Shown here in pieces: positions 43,740 through 60,066 of a stretch of 64,000 nucleotides of DNA. This stretch comes from a virus, in IMG/VR virus record IMGVR_UViG_3300009159_000056, positions 1-64,000 of that record; one strand, written 5' to 3'. Positions within the stretch are counted from its first letter, which is position 1. Every line of letters starts with the position of its first letter. The notes below the pieces were generated by a model. That model ran no database searches. It was given only the letters and a program-made list of their open reading frames with translations, and was not told where the DNA came from. The position numbers and the translations under genes are program-made.

Positions 43740-45771
43740 ATTGCGTAATTGAAAATGGACCAGGTATAGTATAATCGTCTGTCAAATAACTATTTAATGC
43801 ATATTTACCAAACATTTTCATTCCGCTTGGATGAATTAAATCTCTAACATACTTTTCATAAGTTTCCATCATGCGAGGCGCTACGATTTCGTATGAAAAA
43901 TTCTGATAGTAATTGCTATCTTGGATATTTATAATGTCAGACAAGAAGCTCTTGTTGTTTCTCCAGTAACCATAACCTTTACCGTTCGTATCAACAACAG
44001 TTGTGCCGCTAACGACTGTAGCATTTGTTGGGCTGCTCAAGTAAATCGTCTGATCTAAATTGTAGCCATAACCAGAGTCAACAACTTCTACTGCAGTAAC
44101 AATGCCATTAGCAGAACCAGCCTTAGTAGTGATGATAGAATTAAATCCTTGATAACCACCACGTCCATCAGCCAATTTCAAATCGTAAATGTCCGGTTCA
44201 ATAACCGATACTACTGGAGGTACAGAATAACCATCTCCTGGGTTAACGTTCTTCAAGTATGCAATAGTGCCAGTTTCGAATATTCGAATAGTCAATAGTT
44301 TGTTAATTGGAGTATCTAAATTTGATAGATAGCTAATATTTACAGCATAAGGAAATTCCCAATCTGTTGTTCTTTCAGAAGTAGATATTGTTGCTGTGTA
44401 TGAAGCGCATGCGCCAGTTATTTTCGAAACAGGAACAAAATAACCACTAGTTTGATTTACGATAACTTCAGATGTATTAGCTGTTACAACACTACCGGTA
44501 GCAGTAATAGTTTTTTTAGGATAAAGATTTTTAATTTTAACTATAGCTGAACTACTGTTACTTATGAGTACAGTTCCAACTTTCAAATTCGCATTGGTCA
44601 AACTAGCATCTGATGTACTATTAGTAGTCAAGTAAATACAGTTACCGTCAACTTTATATGCAATTAAATTACTAACACCTAAATCAGTATTAGAAAAAGA
44701 TTCTCCATTAGCTGCCAATCCATCAATATTTTGAACGTCGAGCGTCACGCTGTTGGCTGATGATGATACTACTTCGCCATTTATAAATGTACCTGTTGGT
44801 GAAGTGATACCAATTTTAAATCCTTGAGCAGGATCTTCTAATGTAGTTTCTTTGAATTGATCTATTTTATCTCTTACGATCAGGTATATTTTTTTATTGG
44901 TTATATCACCAACTTCGAAATTAGCGCCAGCTCCAAACCCACCAATTACAGTAACAATAGCGTCTAATGAAAACCCTTCGCCACCATTAACGAGGGTAAA
45001 TTCTACCTTACCGTTTTCTTCGCGCACAGATGCTACACGAGCGAGACCGCCAACGCCACCAGCATCAACGTTTAAAAATTGTCCTACTTCGAAATTCGTG
45101 CCACCATTGGTGATGCTGATAGAAGAAAGCGAACCGAAAACTATAGGTGCATTATCAGATGTTATTTCAGGAAAATCTTCACAAAATATTTGTTCATTAA
45201 ATTTGAAGTTGCCTTCCAAACCAGAAAGCATCAACACATTGATAGTTTGATTATTGACGATTTTAACGAAGTAAGATTCTACTGTCGCAAATCCATCATC
45301 CTTAGAATAAATTCTTCGGCCAATCAATTCTCCAAGCAATGGATGATTTGATATTTCGATATATCTTGGGACATGCCAATCTGCTTCAGATGGTTTGAAG
45401 ATAAAATCACCTGGTATAAAAAATGTTATTTCTTCATTAAACAAAATGCGAAAGAGTAGTTCATAAGATCTCTTCGTACCTTTTGTTCTATATAGCTCAA
45501 GAATGTGCTTTACTAATAGCTTCTTATCGGATATAATAGATTCTGGAAGCGATGAGATATACTTATTCTTAAAGTACTTAACGAACTTTTCTGGTGTTGA
45601 ATCGATGTCTTTGATGTCATAAAATGAACGAGTCATGTTTATGAAATTGTCTTGCTGCTCAGCCCATTCATAGTACGCCTTAACGAAGGCAATGAAATTC
45701 GGTCCTTCTTCTTGATAGAAGCTAGGAAATTGCGATTCGATAAGTGGTGAGATATTTTTTTCTATACTCAT
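43735..45771 (-). CDS. Baseplate wedge protein in gp7 position
   Basis: 678 residues (T4 gp7: 1032). The N-terminus NISPLIESQFPSFYQEEGPN and FIAFVKAYYEWAEQQDNFIN, with YISSLPESIISDKKLLVKHI and YRTKGTKRSYELLFRILFNE, is a well-conserved block in T4-like marine phages. The rest is beta-rich, with GGTNFEVGQFLNVDAGGVGG, GGEGFSLDAIV and F-x-x-G-E-V-V repeats related to those in the gp8-like protein. It overlaps the gp6 stop by 4 nt and precedes the gp8-like gene, so it takes the gp7 place in the 25-6-7-8 order. The assignment to gp7 is mainly positional. Confidence 0.66.
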   Translation of the reverse strand: MSIEKNISPLIESQFPSFYQEEGPNFIAFVKAYYEWAEQQDNFINMTRSFYDIKDIDSTPEKFVKYFKNKYISSLPESIISDKKLLVKHILELYRTKGTKRSYELLFRILFNEEITFFIPGDFIFKPSEADWHVPRYIEISNHPLLGELIGRRIYSKDDGFATVESYFVKIVNNQTINVLMLSGLEGNFKFNEQIFCEDFPEITSDNAPIVFGSLSSISITNGGTNFEVGQFLNVDAGGVGGLARVASVREENGKVEFTLVNGGEGFSLDAIVTVIGGFGAGANFEVGDITNKKIYLIVRDKIDQFKETTLEDPAQGFKIGITSPTGTFINGEVVSSSANSVTLDVQNIDGLAANGESFSNTDLGVSNLIAYKVDGNCIYLTTNSTSDASLTNANLKVGTVLISNSSSAIVKIKNLYPKKTITATGSVVTANTSEVIVNQTSGYFVPVSKITGACASYTATISTSERTTDWEFPYAVNISYLSNLDTPINKLLTIRIFETGTIAYLKNVNPGDGYSVPPVVSVIEPDIYDLKLADGRGGYQGFNSIITTKAGSANGIVTAVEVVDSGYGYNLDQTIYLSSPTNATVVSGTTVVDTNGKGYGYWRNNKSFLSDIINIQDSNYYQNFSYEIVAPRMMETYEKYVRDLIHPSGMKMFGKYALNSYLTDDYTIPGPFSITQS

Positions 45772-55168: not shown

Positions 55169-55885
55169 ATGCCTGGATTTAACATCAACGCTTTCCAAAC
55201 AGATATATCGAATCATGGTTATCTGCAAACTAATAAATTTATAGCTGCATTTAGTTCTCCCACATGCATGCAAGGTGAGACTATTGATGGTAGAAGCGCT
55301 ATTGATACAGAAAGATTAATTCAAGTTAGAGCTGAATCAGTTAAGATTCCAGGAATCGCATTGTTACAAGCTGATATTAATAGATATGGTCAGGGTCCTA
55401 CCCAAAAAATGCCATTCAATGCTCGTTTCACAGAAAATGCTATTACGTTTATTTCTGATCGAAACGGTCAGCTCTACAAATATTTCTATGTATGGCTGAA
55501 TAAGATATTCGATACTTCTGGTACTACAGGACAATCAAACCAAGGTGCATCATACGCAACAGAGTATAAAGACAACTACGCAACAGATTTGCATGTGTAC
55601 ATTTATGATAACGCTGGTAATCAGGTTAAAGAAATCGTTATGTACAAAGCTTACCCTGAATCTATGAACGATATTAACCTTAGCTGGAACGATAACAGTC
55701 AGCTGTTGAAGGTAACAGTAAGTTTTACCTTTAGAGATTGGGCGATGATTGGTGTTTCGAATGCTAGAATCGGTACAGACACACAACCAGCTAGAACTAA
55801 CAAAGTTACTACATTTGCTGGTCGTCAGGGCGGAGCAGTTACTCCTTCTTTAACATCATTAAACTCAAGAGTGAGACAACCTTAA
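55169..55885 (+). CDS. 54: Tail-tube initiator gp54-like protein
   Basis: 238 residues (T4 gp54: 320) with the tail-tube fold signature: NINAFQTDISNHGYLQTNKF, VRAESVKIPGIALLQADINR, NAITFISDRNGQLYKYFYVW, and final strands YPESMNDINLSWNDNSQLLK and VTVSFTFRDWA. This arrangement parallels gp19, with a gp54-type N-terminus, so it probably forms the ring that nucleates the tube on gp48. It is located in the plus operon rather than next to gp48, unlike T4. A second tube-like protein is the alternative. Confidence 0.78.
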   Translation: MPGFNINAFQTDISNHGYLQTNKFIAAFSSPTCMQGETIDGRSAIDTERLIQVRAESVKIPGIALLQADINRYGQGPTQKMPFNARFTENAITFISDRNGQLYKYFYVWLNKIFDTSGTTGQSNQGASYATEYKDNYATDLHVYIYDNAGNQVKEIVMYKAYPESMNDINLSWNDNSQLLKVTVSFTFRDWAMIGVSNARIGTDTQPARTNKVTTFAGRQGGAVTPSLTSLNSRVRQP

Positions 55886-55903: not shown

Positions 55904-56611
55904 ATGTCTTTACCTAAAATTGAACATCCTATTTTTAAAATCAAAGTTCCATCTACTAAGAAAGAAATTAGATTTCGACCATTCCTCGTTAAGGAAGAGA
56001 AGATCCTTCTTATTGCTAAGACGAGCGAACAAGAAAACGATATTCTTTTAGCGATTAAGCAGGTCGTCAATAATTGCGCAATAGATGATATTGACGTTGA
56101 TAAGCTAGCCCTGTTTGATGTTGAATATTTGTTCTTGAAGATCAGAGCACAATCAATCAACAATATAATTAATGTTACATACAGAGATAACGAAGACGGA
56201 ACCGATTATGATTTTGATATTGATCTAAATGATGTTATTGTTAAATTTCCATTAGAACAAGAGAAAACTATAAAGTTGTCAGGAAAAGCTGGCTTGATAA
56301 TGAAGTATCCTGAAGCTAGTTTGTATGAAGACAAAGAGTTTTTAAATTCTGGTGAAGAAGTGTTCTACCAATTGGTATTACGCTGCATCGAAAAGTTCTA
56401 TGATGAAGAAACAGTTTACGATGTGAAAAACTATACGTTGCAAGAAGTATCAGAATTCGTTGATAATTTAGATGTGAAGAGTTTTGATAAGGTACGAGAC
56501 TTCATTGTCAATCAACCAAAACTAAACTACATTATCGAATACACCAACAAGATGAAAAACAAGAGAAAGATCGAGCTTACTACGTTAACAGATTTTTTTA
56601 CATTGCGCTGA
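55904..56611 (+). CDS. 26: Baseplate hub gp26-like protein (frameshift upstream frame)
   Basis: 235 residues (T4: 208). N-terminus PIFKIKVPSTKKEIRFRPFL and VKEEKILLIAK, with AIKQVVNNCAIDDIDVDKLA and FDVEYLFLKIRAQSINN, is the T4 baseplate hub gp26 family pattern. It stops at TGA 56609-56611, 10 bases after a run of seven T that sits in frame as T-TTT-TTT. A -1 slip would extend it by 61 residues into a gp51-like tail (total 293). Two products in a fixed ratio, as in other phage tail assembly chaperone pairs, are expected. It has a GGAG ribosome site. Confidence 0.88.
   Translation: MSLPKIEHPIFKIKVPSTKKEIRFRPFLVKEEKILLIAKTSEQENDILLAIKQVVNNCAIDDIDVDKLALFDVEYLFLKIRAQSINNIINVTYRDNEDGTDYDFDIDLNDVIVKFPLEQEKTIKLSGKAGLIMKYPEASLYEDKEFLNSGEEVFYQLVLRCIEKFYDEETVYDVKNYTLQEVSEFVDNLDVKSFDKVRDFIVNQPKLNYIIEYTNKMKNKRKIELTTLTDFFTLR
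56593..56599 (+). promoter_or_regulatory. Slippery heptamer for -1 ribosomal frameshift
   Basis: TTTTTTT at 56593-56599, in the gp26 frame as GA(T TTT TTT) ACA, a perfect X-XXY-YYZ site. The zero frame ends at TGA 56609. The -1 frame is open from 56491 to the TAA at 56782-56784. The 8-bp palindrome CTCTAGAG at 56621 is the only nearby stem candidate; a strong pseudoknot is not obvious. Confidence 0.75.
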
Positions 56612-56784
56612 GTCACAATACTCTAGAGAATTATTATACAACTAATTTTTCTTTGATTCAGCACCATAAATATTCTATAAGTGATATTGAAAATCTTTTG
56701 CCATTCGAGCGTGACATTTATGTTGAAATGTTAATGAATCATCTCAAAGAACTAGAAGAACAAAAGAGAAATCAAAATGGCTAA
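56599..56784 (+). CDS. gp51-like hub-assembly extension made by -1 frameshift
   Basis: The 61 codons in the -1 frame after the T7 run read YIALSHNTLENYYTTNFSLI, then QHHKYSISDIENLLPFERDI and YVEMLMNHLKELEEQKRNQN-G. The S-I-x-D-I-E-N-L-L-P-F-E-R-D-I-Y-x-x-M-L segment is of the kind found in tail or hub assembly chaperones next to gp26, in the position of T4 gp51. No ATG exists in this frame before two late Met codons, so independent initiation would leave almost nothing. It overlaps the next gene's ATG (56777) by 8 nt. Confidence 0.72.
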   Translation, partial: YIALSHNTLENYYTTNFSLIQHHKYSISDIENLLPFERDIYVEMLMNHLKELEEQKRNQNG

Positions 56785-57247
56785 ATTCGGCAAATCGATA
56801 ATGAGCGATGATATGGTGGAGATTTCGGTTTCTCCACCATTTAACTCACAACCTCAACCAACACCAGTAGCAGCTGCCCCTACAACAGCTGTTCCTCCGC
56901 CACCGCCTCCTCCTCCACCACAACAAACAGCAAGTTATAGTAGTTCTTCCTCTGTAGAATTTACTCCTATGAGTCCGGAGAAGGCAGAAGAAAGCTGGGT
57001 TAAATCTATGTGGAGACCAGCAATGGGTTGGCTCTACATGCTTATCTGTTTGATGGATTTCGTTATCTTTCCTGCAATCGCGATGTTCTTACCAGTTATG
57101 CTTAAAGGTATTGGTATCACGATGCAATATGCAGCTTGGCAAAGCTTAACATTATCTAATGGTGGATTAATTCACATGGCGTTTGGTGCCATCCTTGGTG
57201 TTGCTGCTTACGGTAGAACCCAAGAGAAAGTAGCGAGCAAACAATAA
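56777..57247 (+). CDS. Holin-like membrane protein with polyproline linker
   Basis: 156 residues. The N-terminal about 60 are hydrophilic and disordered, with a nine-Pro run at 40-48. Then W-R-P-A-M-G-W-L-Y-M-L-I leads into a long membrane segment (about 82-108), a second hydrophobic stretch (110-125) and a third (128-146). The W-R-P-A-x-G-W-x-Y pattern resembles holins of the 3-TM gene-transfer-agent type. Its position directly before a protein with a peptidase domain would suit lysis or inner-membrane contact. A virion-associated membrane protein is the alternative. The start lies inside the gp51-like frame. Confidence 0.62.
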   Translation: MAKFGKSIMSDDMVEISVSPPFNSQPQPTPVAAAPTTAVPPPPPPPPPQQTASYSSSSSVEFTPMSPEKAEESWVKSMWRPAMGWLYMLICLMDFVIFPAIAMFLPVMLKGIGITMQYAAWQSLTLSNGGLIHMAFGAILGVAAYGRTQEKVASKQ

Positions 57248-60066
57248 TGGCTAAAAAAGGCGAACGTGTTGGTGCTATGGGGGATACTGTATATTACAGA
57301 ACCCCCGACGGTCAAATAATTGACGATGCAGGTAATGTCCTTAAAGGACCAATGGCCAAGATGCTTGCCGATGAATACGAATCAAAACAACAAGAGAAAG
57401 CTAAAGCACAAGCGGAAGCTAAAGCTGCAGCTGAAGAAGATAAAAGAAAGAAAGCTGCTGAGAAATCAGCTGAGATAGCACGTAAGTCCGCAGAAAGACA
57501 AGCGGCTTCTGATGCGAAACGACAGCAAGCTGATGAAGAAAGAGCACAGAAGGCTGCTGAGAGAGAAGCTACACAAAAAACACAACAGCCAAAACAACCT
57601 GCTGCAGCACCAAGACAACCTTCTGCTCCTAGACAAGCAGCGCCAAAACAACCTGCAGCTGCTGCTCCGGAGCCTACTGATGGTCAAACAATTAAAAATG
57701 CATTTAAAAATGCAGCTATTTCTGTAGGTAAATCTGCATTTAAATCTGCATTTCCAACATTATCAGGCGCTATTAATCGACCAGATCCAGTTCAAGGCAA
57801 CAGTAGTGCAGAAGACATTAATGCAGGTGGCGCTAGACAAGCAATCAACAGAGTTGCTGATAGTGTAAACACAACTAATATGATGATGCAAACTTCTATC
57901 GCACGTCAGGAAATGACTAATCAAATTCTTCAAGAGATATTGAAAGAAGTTCAGGTAATACGTCAATCTACCGCTAGTAGTGGTATTCTAGATGCTCTTA
58001 GCAATTTAATACCAGGAGTTGGTGGAGGTGGTGTTAAAGGTAAACCTGCTCCTGGTAAAGTAACACCGAAAACTAGCATGCTTGGTAAAGCTGGTAATGT
58101 TATGCGTGGCGTTGCTGGTCGTGCAGGAGGAGCATTACTTGGTGGTGCATTCCAAGCATATGATGAGTATCAAGAATCTGGCGATGCTACACGAGCAGCT
58201 TCCGCTGGCGCTGGTGGAGCCGTAGGTGGTGGATTGGGAGCATGGGGAGGAGCTGCAGCGGGTGGTGCTATCGGCGCTCTTGGTGGTCCTCTAGCGCCTG
58301 TTACTGTACCTCTTGGTATGTTAATTGGTGGTATTGCTGGTGGTATAGGTGGCAGTATGCTTGGTGGTAAAGCTGGTAAGGCTACATATGATGCTGTAAC
58401 TAAACCATCAGTACCTCCACCTCCAGCTGTAGGAGAACCAAAGGCTAGTATTTCTATTAAAGAAGCTCAAAATGCAGCAAAGCAAGAACCAGAACCAGAA
58501 GAAGAAAATCCATTAGATGCTATTGTTAATGTAAAAACATTAACATTTAATGCGGATAGTATTATTTTTAATGCTAAAAATCAACAAGCTGCTTCGCCTA
58601 CAGCTGCACCAACATCGACGGCTACACCAGAAGTTAAAGCAGCTGGGGCAATTATAGCAGCTGGTTCTGGTAGCAGACCATCGCCTAGTTCGCAAGGAAT
58701 TTCTGGTCCTACTCAGTCAGGATCTATTAGAGAAGCGTTAGCATCAGCACAAACACCAAGCCTATCTGGCTTCGGTACAAGTCAAATTAATGCTGCTCGA
58801 GCCAATGCTGCAACATCGCCGTTTAGTGTTACTCCAGGAGCTATGAGTGCTGGCCCTCAATCTGCATCGTTAGGTGGCGCTGGAGGCGCTGGTGTTGGTG
58901 GTGCATCTGATGCATCAGCTGTTCAATTAGCTTCTACGATGGTTGGTAAAAATAGAGTACAATCATTAGATTATTTAAAAGCTGGTGGATTCAATAACAC
59001 AGGAGAAGCATGGTGTGCTGAGTTTGTTAATTCTACATTGAAACAAACTGGTGGTACCGGTACTGGTGATAAAATTGCAAATAGTTTTCAAAAGTGGGGA
59101 ACTTCTATAGATCCTACAAAGGTTCAAGCTGGTGATGTTGTCCTTCAAACAAAAGGTAATGGACCTGGTCAAGTTGGTGGACATGTCGGTATAGCAACTG
59201 GTGTGTATCAGCATGGACAAATTGAAATGATTGCTGGTAACAGTGGTAAAGCTGGATCTGTTCGAAAATATTTCGTGCCTATTAATGGACAATTGCAGGT
59301 GCGAAGAGGTTCTGGTGGTTCTGGTAATAATCCAAAGGTAGCAGATGCAACAAAAAATCCTTCTGCAGGAAATGCTGCTGGCGCTGCTACAGCAGGAGCT
59401 TCTGATCCTAAGAAAGCAGAAGCTGCAGCAACTCCTGGTGCAAAACAAACAGCAGCTGCTGGTGGATGGAGCGACGCTGCTAAAACATCTGCAGAAAAAA
59501 CACCATCTGCTGCTGGTGATCCTACTTCAAGAAGATTTGACGCAGAAGGTAATAAACTCGATCCCGCTCCTGGTGGAGGAATAAAAAGATTCGATCCAAC
59601 AACAGGTAAATTTGAAGAGCCTTCTAAACCAGATAACAGCGATCCTTATCTTAGAAAAATAAAGCCGAAGGGTATGGCGGAAGGTTTAACAGACGCTGCA
59701 ATTAAAAGAGCTAAAGAATCAGCAGCACAAGCAGCTGAAATTGTTGGCCCTAAAACATTTAATGTAGGAACTGGTAGATGGGAAGCTTATGAATTAGCTA
59801 AACAGCCAAGCTATGAACCTGCAAAAATATCTGAACCAAAACCAATCACAAAAGGTGCAGAGTTAAATAGGGCTTCTACTCAAGATATAGTCGACGATAG
59901 ATCAGCTAAGACAGGCATCACTGTCAATCAACAAAGTAGCGCTACGCCTCCAATTAATAACAGTAGTAAAGGAAATAGCGACAGTACTAGCGTTGGAATG
60001 GTAGAACCTGTTGATGCTAGAACAAGATTAAAAGATTTGTTTGGTATCAGCACTATGGCTGCATAA
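57247..60066 (+). CDS. Large tail protein with CHAP-like peptidase domain (tape-measure/hub candidate)
   Basis: 939 residues. Residues about 40-110 are an Ala/Lys/Glu/Gln coiled coil, 110-140 are Pro/Ala/Gln-rich, and 280-390 contain a Gly-Ala zipper (GGALLGGAF, GGGLGAWGGAAAGG, GGIAGGIGGSMLGG) that could enter a membrane. Residues about 558-685 are a CHAP/NlpC-type amidase-peptidase: GEAWCAEFVNSTL (Cys590), QVGGHVGIATG (His646) and IAGNSG (Asn665) give the Cys-His-Asn set. The rest is disordered. Following gp26/51, it occupies the place where a tail length/hub protein (T4 gp29) is expected, so it may combine tape measure and cell-wall hydrolysis; this is inference. Last gene before the terminator. 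Confidence 0.77.
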   Translation: MAKKGERVGAMGDTVYYRTPDGQIIDDAGNVLKGPMAKMLADEYESKQQEKAKAQAEAKAAAEEDKRKKAAEKSAEIARKSAERQAASDAKRQQADEERAQKAAEREATQKTQQPKQPAAAPRQPSAPRQAAPKQPAAAAPEPTDGQTIKNAFKNAAISVGKSAFKSAFPTLSGAINRPDPVQGNSSAEDINAGGARQAINRVADSVNTTNMMMQTSIARQEMTNQILQEILKEVQVIRQSTASSGILDALSNLIPGVGGGGVKGKPAPGKVTPKTSMLGKAGNVMRGVAGRAGGALLGGAFQAYDEYQESGDATRAASAGAGGAVGGGLGAWGGAAAGGAIGALGGPLAPVTVPLGMLIGGIAGGIGGSMLGGKAGKATYDAVTKPSVPPPPAVGEPKASISIKEAQNAAKQEPEPEEENPLDAIVNVKTLTFNADSIIFNAKNQQAASPTAAPTSTATPEVKAAGAIIAAGSGSRPSPSSQGISGPTQSGSIREALASAQTPSLSGFGTSQINAARANAATSPFSVTPGAMSAGPQSASLGGAGGAGVGGASDASAVQLASTMVGKNRVQSLDYLKAGGFNNTGEAWCAEFVNSTLKQTGGTGTGDKIANSFQKWGTSIDPTKVQAGDVVLQTKGNGPGQVGGHVGIATGVYQHGQIEMIAGNSGKAGSVRKYFVPINGQLQVRRGSGGSGNNPKVADATKNPSAGNAAGAATAGASDPKKAEAAATPGAKQTAAAGGWSDAAKTSAEKTPSAAGDPTSRRFDAEGNKLDPAPGGGIKRFDPTTGKFEEPSKPDNSDPYLRKIKPKGMAEGLTDAAIKRAKESAAQAAEIVGPKTFNVGTGRWEAYELAKQPSYEPAKISEPKPITKGAELNRASTQDIVDDRSAKTGITVNQQSSATPPINNSSKGNSDSTSVGMVEPVDARTRLKDLFGISTMAA

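Follow-up and report, generated by a model that had tools for sequence, protein, structure and literature searches.

A conserved in-register slippery site at the end of a gp26-like gene predicts a -1 frameshift into a gp51-like frame in a T4-like phage

Results

Two overlapping frames joined at a T7 run

In the window, a stretch of 64,000 nucleotides from an uncultivated T4-like virus (IMG/VR virus record IMGVR_UViG_3300009159_000056), a gp26-like gene and a gp51-like reading frame meet at a slippery heptamer that is conserved in register throughout their relatives. Judged from comparison of the sequences, the best explanation of this arrangement is, with high probability, a programmed -1 frameshift yielding a short and a long tail assembly chaperone. 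The gp26-like 0-frame ORF (55904..56611, + strand), corresponding to the short form or TAC-N, encodes 235 aa and ends at the TGA stop at 56609-56611, its 3' end reading ACA GAT TTT TTT ACA TTG CGC TGA. Close to this stop, the seven T at 56593-56599 (+) are read in the 0 frame as T_TTT_TTT in the X_XXY_YYZ register, with the first T forming the third codon position of GAT in GAT TTT TTT, as a preliminary description of this DNA had proposed. Open from 56491 onwards, 34 codons before the slip, the -1 frame ends at the TAA at 56782-56784, and the part that a slip would join to gp26 (56593..56784, +; 63 codons and TAA) encodes a gp51-like C-terminal domain with the sequence FFYIALSHNTLENYYTTNFSLIQHHKYSISDIENLLPFERDIYVEMLMNHLKELEEQKRNQNG. 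This product comprises 63 residues from the two Phe codons on and 61 beyond them, which gives a predicted fusion of 230+2+61 = 293 aa. Recomputation returned the same limits of the -1 frame, the same 61 post-slip residues and the same lengths of 235 and 293 residues that had been given for the short form and the fusion in the preliminary description. It had also called the -1 frame start-less, and the sole ATG, GTG or TTG within the first 27 codons is indeed a TTG at codon 20. The -1 frame of this phage thus encodes a conserved protein without a start of its own, start codons being present in some relatives, and a T4-type separate gene 51, independent, full-length and with its own start, was not found in this phage.

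In the 19,684 codons of those ORFs in the window that have 100 aa or more and do not overlap on their strand, in-register T6 heptamers occurred six times; of these, the T7 run at 56593-56599 alone lies close to where a gene ends and is followed by a long open -1 frame. Elsewhere in the window, an in-register AAATTTG (45199-45205, +) lies shortly before the stop of ORF 44897-45250, beyond which the -1 frame continues for more than 30 codons; this may reflect chance or a simple gene overlap.

Conservation of the slippery site and the frame relation

Related loci were collected in five scans of viral contigs and phage records, which returned 350 loci. Four of these scans used a query starting after the slip, so that the slippery residues could not have biased recovery, and the remaining one, the first, used seed patterns located elsewhere. 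Profiles for both parts were used to place gp26 and the C-frame, and 347 pairs were found among the 350 loci. The C-frame stood in the -1 relation to gp26 in all 347, of which 346 were scanned automatically and one (L133) was read manually; the contig of the latter carries a frame break upstream, and its slip site is intact and in the -1 relation. The T6-T7 run that the preliminary description had suggested looking for at the gp26 end of T4-like relatives was present as T_TTT_TTN in register in 345 of the 346 automatically scanned loci, including some that are only ~30% identical in gp26, and because of this conservation we take the observation to be real. The sole exception, L152, lacks the 3' end of gp26. 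Around positions 1470-1500 of this locus the gp26 3' end and the slippery site are absent and the C-frame is intact, as in an assembly chimera or a deletion. A broken gene or sequencing artefact in the phage studied here, to which nothing but the frame break itself points, is refuted by the conservation of the frame relation and retains practically no probability: the relation is shared by hundreds of independent contigs as well as cultured phages, and the independent contig L007 carries a C-frame identical to that of this phage.

Removal of near-duplicates left 258 non-redundant loci with the heptamers TTTTTTC (129), TTTTTTT (102), TTTTTTA (23) and TTTTTTG (4). Synonymous constraint at the slip site was observed in all 258; among the other Phe-TTN pairs of these gp26 genes, 45 of 470 were slippery, a comparison that holds without treating the loci as independent. 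In the rest of these genes T occupied the wobble position in a fraction of 0.77 of NNY codons and TTT accounted for 0.70 of the Phe codons; the resulting joint probability is ~1e-77 if the loci are counted as independent, which they are not. A tblastn search with the -1 frame matched 606 phage records, mostly of Synechococcus and Prochlorococcus phages but also of Vibrio, Aeromonas, Rhizobium and Sinorhizobium phages. The -1 frame was more conserved than gp26 (up to 65% vs about 41% identity).

Start codons in the -1 frame

The -1 frame might instead be a separate gene 51 whose translation restarts at or close to the gp26 stop (termination-reinitiation), in keeping with most cyanophage annotations and with the distinct gp51 annotated in many records. 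An ATG overlaps or adjoins the gp26 stop in several relatives, including phiM12 (L005), Cr30 (L006) and phiM9 (L088), where the sequence is TGATG. Among the 258 non-redundant loci, however, 245 have no ATG, GTG or TTG at or upstream of the slip, and in 56 the -1 frame is closed just before the heptamer. No such codon occurs up to and including codon 10 in 120 of the 258, or up to and including codon 21, by which most of the conserved first helix has been read, in 20; given the 120, separate initiation cannot generally be how the -1 product arises. In the phage analyzed here a start at the TTG of codon 20 would drop the conserved first 20 residues. Of the observations that the preliminary description had named as speaking against frameshifting, two concern homologues: a missing slippery run was confined to L152, while independent starts do exist in some relatives, yet the heptamer is retained even where an ATG is available. 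We therefore regard reinitiation as the route to the -1 product as very unlikely, although it may add some free C-domain in those relatives with an ATG near the gp26 stop.

RNA signals around the slip

A predicted 9-bp stem, GCUGAGUCA/UGAUUCAGC, begins 7 nt after the T7 run. The spacer occupies 56600..56606 (+, 7 nt), the 5' arm GCUGAGUCA occupies 56607..56615 (+) and includes the 0-frame TGA stop, and the 3' arm UGAUUCAGC at 56654..56662 (+) pairs with 56607-56615. Compared with dinucleotide shuffles the stem had a z of -4.0. Because the region is coding, we additionally used synonymous recoding as a control, in which synonymous codons were resampled downstream of the gp26 stop; the z was -4.1 and none of 60 recodings was as stable. 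Over the 258 loci, the downstream RNA had a mean z of -1.79 in this test, compared with -0.24 and -0.36 for two control regions. RNAalifold returned no consensus structure for an alignment of 39 sequences, which is why we counted the pairs of the stem explicitly, in addition to the synonymous recoding. Of the stem cells in 39 relatives that share the spacing of this phage, 93.2% were paired, vs at most 37% when one arm was slid by 1-3 columns. Three pairs were altered on both sides among these relatives, and the covariation score was matched by 2 of 500 shuffles; shuffles of the pair count alone gave a modest result, the observed count of doubly changed pairs being reached by 78 of 500. Where a first helix with 6 or more bp was located, its start was most often 5-7 nt past the heptamer (106 of 258 loci), and the stem sequence differed in other lineages. 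A predicted downstream structure at the 5-9 nt considered typical of frameshift sites is hence found in this phage, with an empty RNAalifold consensus. Inspection by eye revealed no convincing pseudoknot partner for the 38-nt loop of the stem.

A Shine-Dalgarno-like element upstream of the heptamer was present in about half of the relatives. At the 134 loci with Glu-Gly at the matching place of gp26, the Glu codon was GAG in 103 (77%), vs 25% elsewhere in the same genes, which places GAGGG ~10 nt before the heptamer. Pairing with the anti-Shine-Dalgarno was predicted at -6.0 kcal/mol on average, vs -1.5 kcal/mol in controls. The element was absent in the phage studied here (duplex -2.2 kcal/mol) and its close group.

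Slippage of RNA polymerase on the T run, resulting in a mixed mRNA, would be another way of joining the two frames, since homopolymer runs are able to cause polymerase slippage and this phage has a T7. The heptamer is, however, TTTTTTC, TTTTTTA or TTTTTTG in 156 of the 258 loci, and such runs are short for polymerase slippage. The register, the 5-7 nt spacing, the downstream stem and the upstream Shine-Dalgarno-like element are signals of ribosomal frameshifting, and we hold transcriptional slippage to be extremely unlikely.

Protein families and predicted structure

The 0-frame protein belongs to PF12322 (E 3.1e-50; 171.3 bits vs a curated cut-off of 24.5) and to phrog_150 (baseplate hub, E 4.2e-57). 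The -1 peptide matched phrog_634 (baseplate hub assembly catalyst, gp51; E 1.5e-27), aligned from residue 2, as well as the C-terminal end of phrog_150, and had no Pfam match. A short and a long form sharing their N-terminal domain are predicted by the frame architecture and have a counterpart in gp26 and gp51 of T4. The AlphaFold2 model of the 0-frame protein had a pLDDT of 92.9, and the C-terminal part was predicted to be helical (pLDDT 79.9). A sequence search of the PDB returned nothing relevant. With Foldseek, significant matches of the gp26 model were limited to gp26-like viral models; the HK97 tail chaperone 2ob9 was among the top PDB matches but not significant (E 1.4, probability 0.23). 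Since no chaperone fold was matched significantly, it is the gene context and the literature, not the fold, that suggest a chaperone function of the pair.

Genes surrounding the pair

Upstream of the pair, ORF 55169..55885 (+) encodes a tail tube-like protein of the gp19 family (PF23849, E 4.9e-12; phrog_45, E 3.5e-31). Downstream, a 156-aa membrane or holin-like ORF (56777..57247, +; PF11351, E 7.4e-7) is followed by a 939-aa tape-measure-like ORF with a CHAP domain (57247..60066, +; phrog_794, E 4.3e-7; CHAP, E 3.8e-7), the presumed client. The pair is accordingly located where tail assembly chaperones are expected, between tail tube and predicted tape measure genes, with one intervening ORF. 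The order is that of phiM12, in which gp4, gp2, the gp19-like tube protein, 26/51, a small ORF and the tape measure follow one another, and not that of the T4 baseplate hub locus, to which the preliminary description had assigned the region. It had further placed a large tail protein after the pair; such a protein is encoded downstream, but the immediate neighbour is the holin-like ORF. The assignment of ORF 57247-60066 as the tape measure is tentative, and outside the CHAP domain no relative was found in the phage collection.

Further features of these neighbours were observed. The 156-aa ORF has a proline-rich N-terminus, PF11351 being a phage holin family with three transmembrane segments, and its ATG overlaps the final codons of the -1 frame. 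The CHAP (amidase-type) domain of the 939-aa ORF comprises residues 584-665. In cyanophage S-PM2 (L002 1682-3186), the N-terminus of the ORF directly after the pair resembles ADP-ribosyltransferase families (PF01129, E 4.2e-6).

Separate genes in T4 and other Straboviridae

In T4, gene 26 (208 aa) and gene 51 (249 aa) are located on opposite strands. Both proteins matched PF12322 over its full length, with a C-terminal match to phrog_634 in gp51 only. The same pattern of separate genes was found in Aeromonas phages AS-gz and 44RR2.8t.2, Proteus phage phiP4-3 and Escherichia phage G37-3. Schizotequatrovirus R11Z and Ceceduovirus AS-yj, on the other hand, have kept the -1 overlap with T_TTT_TTC, and both strategies therefore exist within the Straboviridae. 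It is plausible that the separate genes 26 and 51 of the T4 type are derived.

T4 gp26 also weakly matched the gp28 family phrog_1140 (E 9.4e-4; L095 6803-7429 and 9349-9882), which may hint at a third relative among the T4 hub assembly proteins.

Discussion

The interpretation of the locus as a lambda G/GT-like -1 frameshift, put forward in the preliminary description, is supported by several features: the slippery site is conserved, the -1 relation is constant, starts are missing, selection acts at the RNA level and the -1 peptide is homologous to gp51. The sequences themselves establish these features, along with the two frames and the gp26 homology of the first; that ribosomes do slip, and how often, we infer from them. 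According to the mechanism we propose, the majority of ribosomes would read the gp26-like frame to the TGA at 56609 and produce the 235-aa TAC-N. A minority would pause at T_TTT_TTT, with the 9-bp RNA stem 7 nt downstream, and two Phe-tRNAs would re-pair one base upstream, after which the -1 frame would be read to the TAA at 56782. The slip is predicted to yield a 293-aa TAC-NC whose C-terminal domain is helical. Lambda gpG/gpGT suggest, by analogy, what the two forms would do: each would form a coat on the tape measure protein, which is presumably ORF 57247-60066, the tail tube protein would be brought in by the C-terminal domain, and neither form would be retained in the virion.

It seems fairly likely that frameshifting is ancestral in a large part of the T4 superfamily, where a cassette made up of exchangeable parts would drive it, with the separate T4 genes derived by duplication and the gene 51 annotated in hundreds of cyanophage records not being an independent gene. 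The parts of this putative cassette would be an invariant T_TTT_TTN, a lineage-variable stem 5-7 nt downstream and a Shine-Dalgarno-like element that has been gained or lost depending on the lineage.

T4 gene 51 was long known for an essential protein of hub assembly whose function was not understood. The locus described here indicates how most T4-like relatives would obtain both proteins of the pair from a single gene; it supports T4 26/51 as a chaperone pair for the tape measure and makes that reading testable. The gp51 of many cyanophage annotations would accordingly be a fragment of a fusion protein, and the RNA signals offer a natural, well-defined cassette on which -1 frameshifting can be measured. 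In a published listing (PMC3004832), both gp26 and gp51 of T4 appear among the hub assembly chaperones, the latter being given as required but absent from the particle.

Our literature search on gp26/gp51 frameshifting returned no direct description, and the closest precedent was reached through the work citing it. Vladimirov, Gautam and Davidson (Virology 2022, 566:9-15) reportedly found frameshifting to be conserved in several T4-like groups, T4 having separate genes 26 and 51. PRFect (PMC10885494) cites this study for T4-like phages with one short and one fused gene, and in PMC12846349 it is the source given for the poly-T signals of frameshifting in the TAC-N genes of T4-like phages; a 2016 review had listed T4 as an exception to the conserved tail frameshift (PMC5009743). 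As represented in these citing papers, the study already identified these chaperone genes in T4-like phages; the frameshift is thus not new in principle, and the idea expressed in the preliminary description is an independent rediscovery. The stem and the upstream element, as quantified here, may add to the published description.

Compared with the T4-like gp26/gp51 of that study, as far as the citing work conveys it, the present locus involves the same families and the same combination of a short frame-0 form with a longer form carrying the gp51 C-terminal domain, and no difference in principle is apparent. The likeness to T4 itself lies in the proteins, gp26 corresponding to PF12322 and gp51 to PF12322 plus the C-terminal family of the -1 frame, whereas T4 encodes them in two separate opposite-strand genes and needs no frameshift. 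In lambda gpG/gpGT and other tail chaperones, a short protein is accompanied by a low-abundance -1 extension, with the genes located between tail tube and tape measure (PMC5009743). The short protein, the -1 extension and the position between tube and tape measure are shared by the locus analyzed here, where they are predicted from the genes, but the signal is T_TTT_TTN with a downstream stem, the sequence is unrelated and a holin-like ORF separates the pair from the tape measure ORF. The -1 cassette of E. coli dnaX consists of an upstream Shine-Dalgarno-like element, the slippery heptamer A_AAA_AAG and a downstream stem. Many relatives of this phage combine the same three kinds of element, but with a T-run heptamer in place of A_AAA_AAG and, in the phage studied here, without the upstream element.
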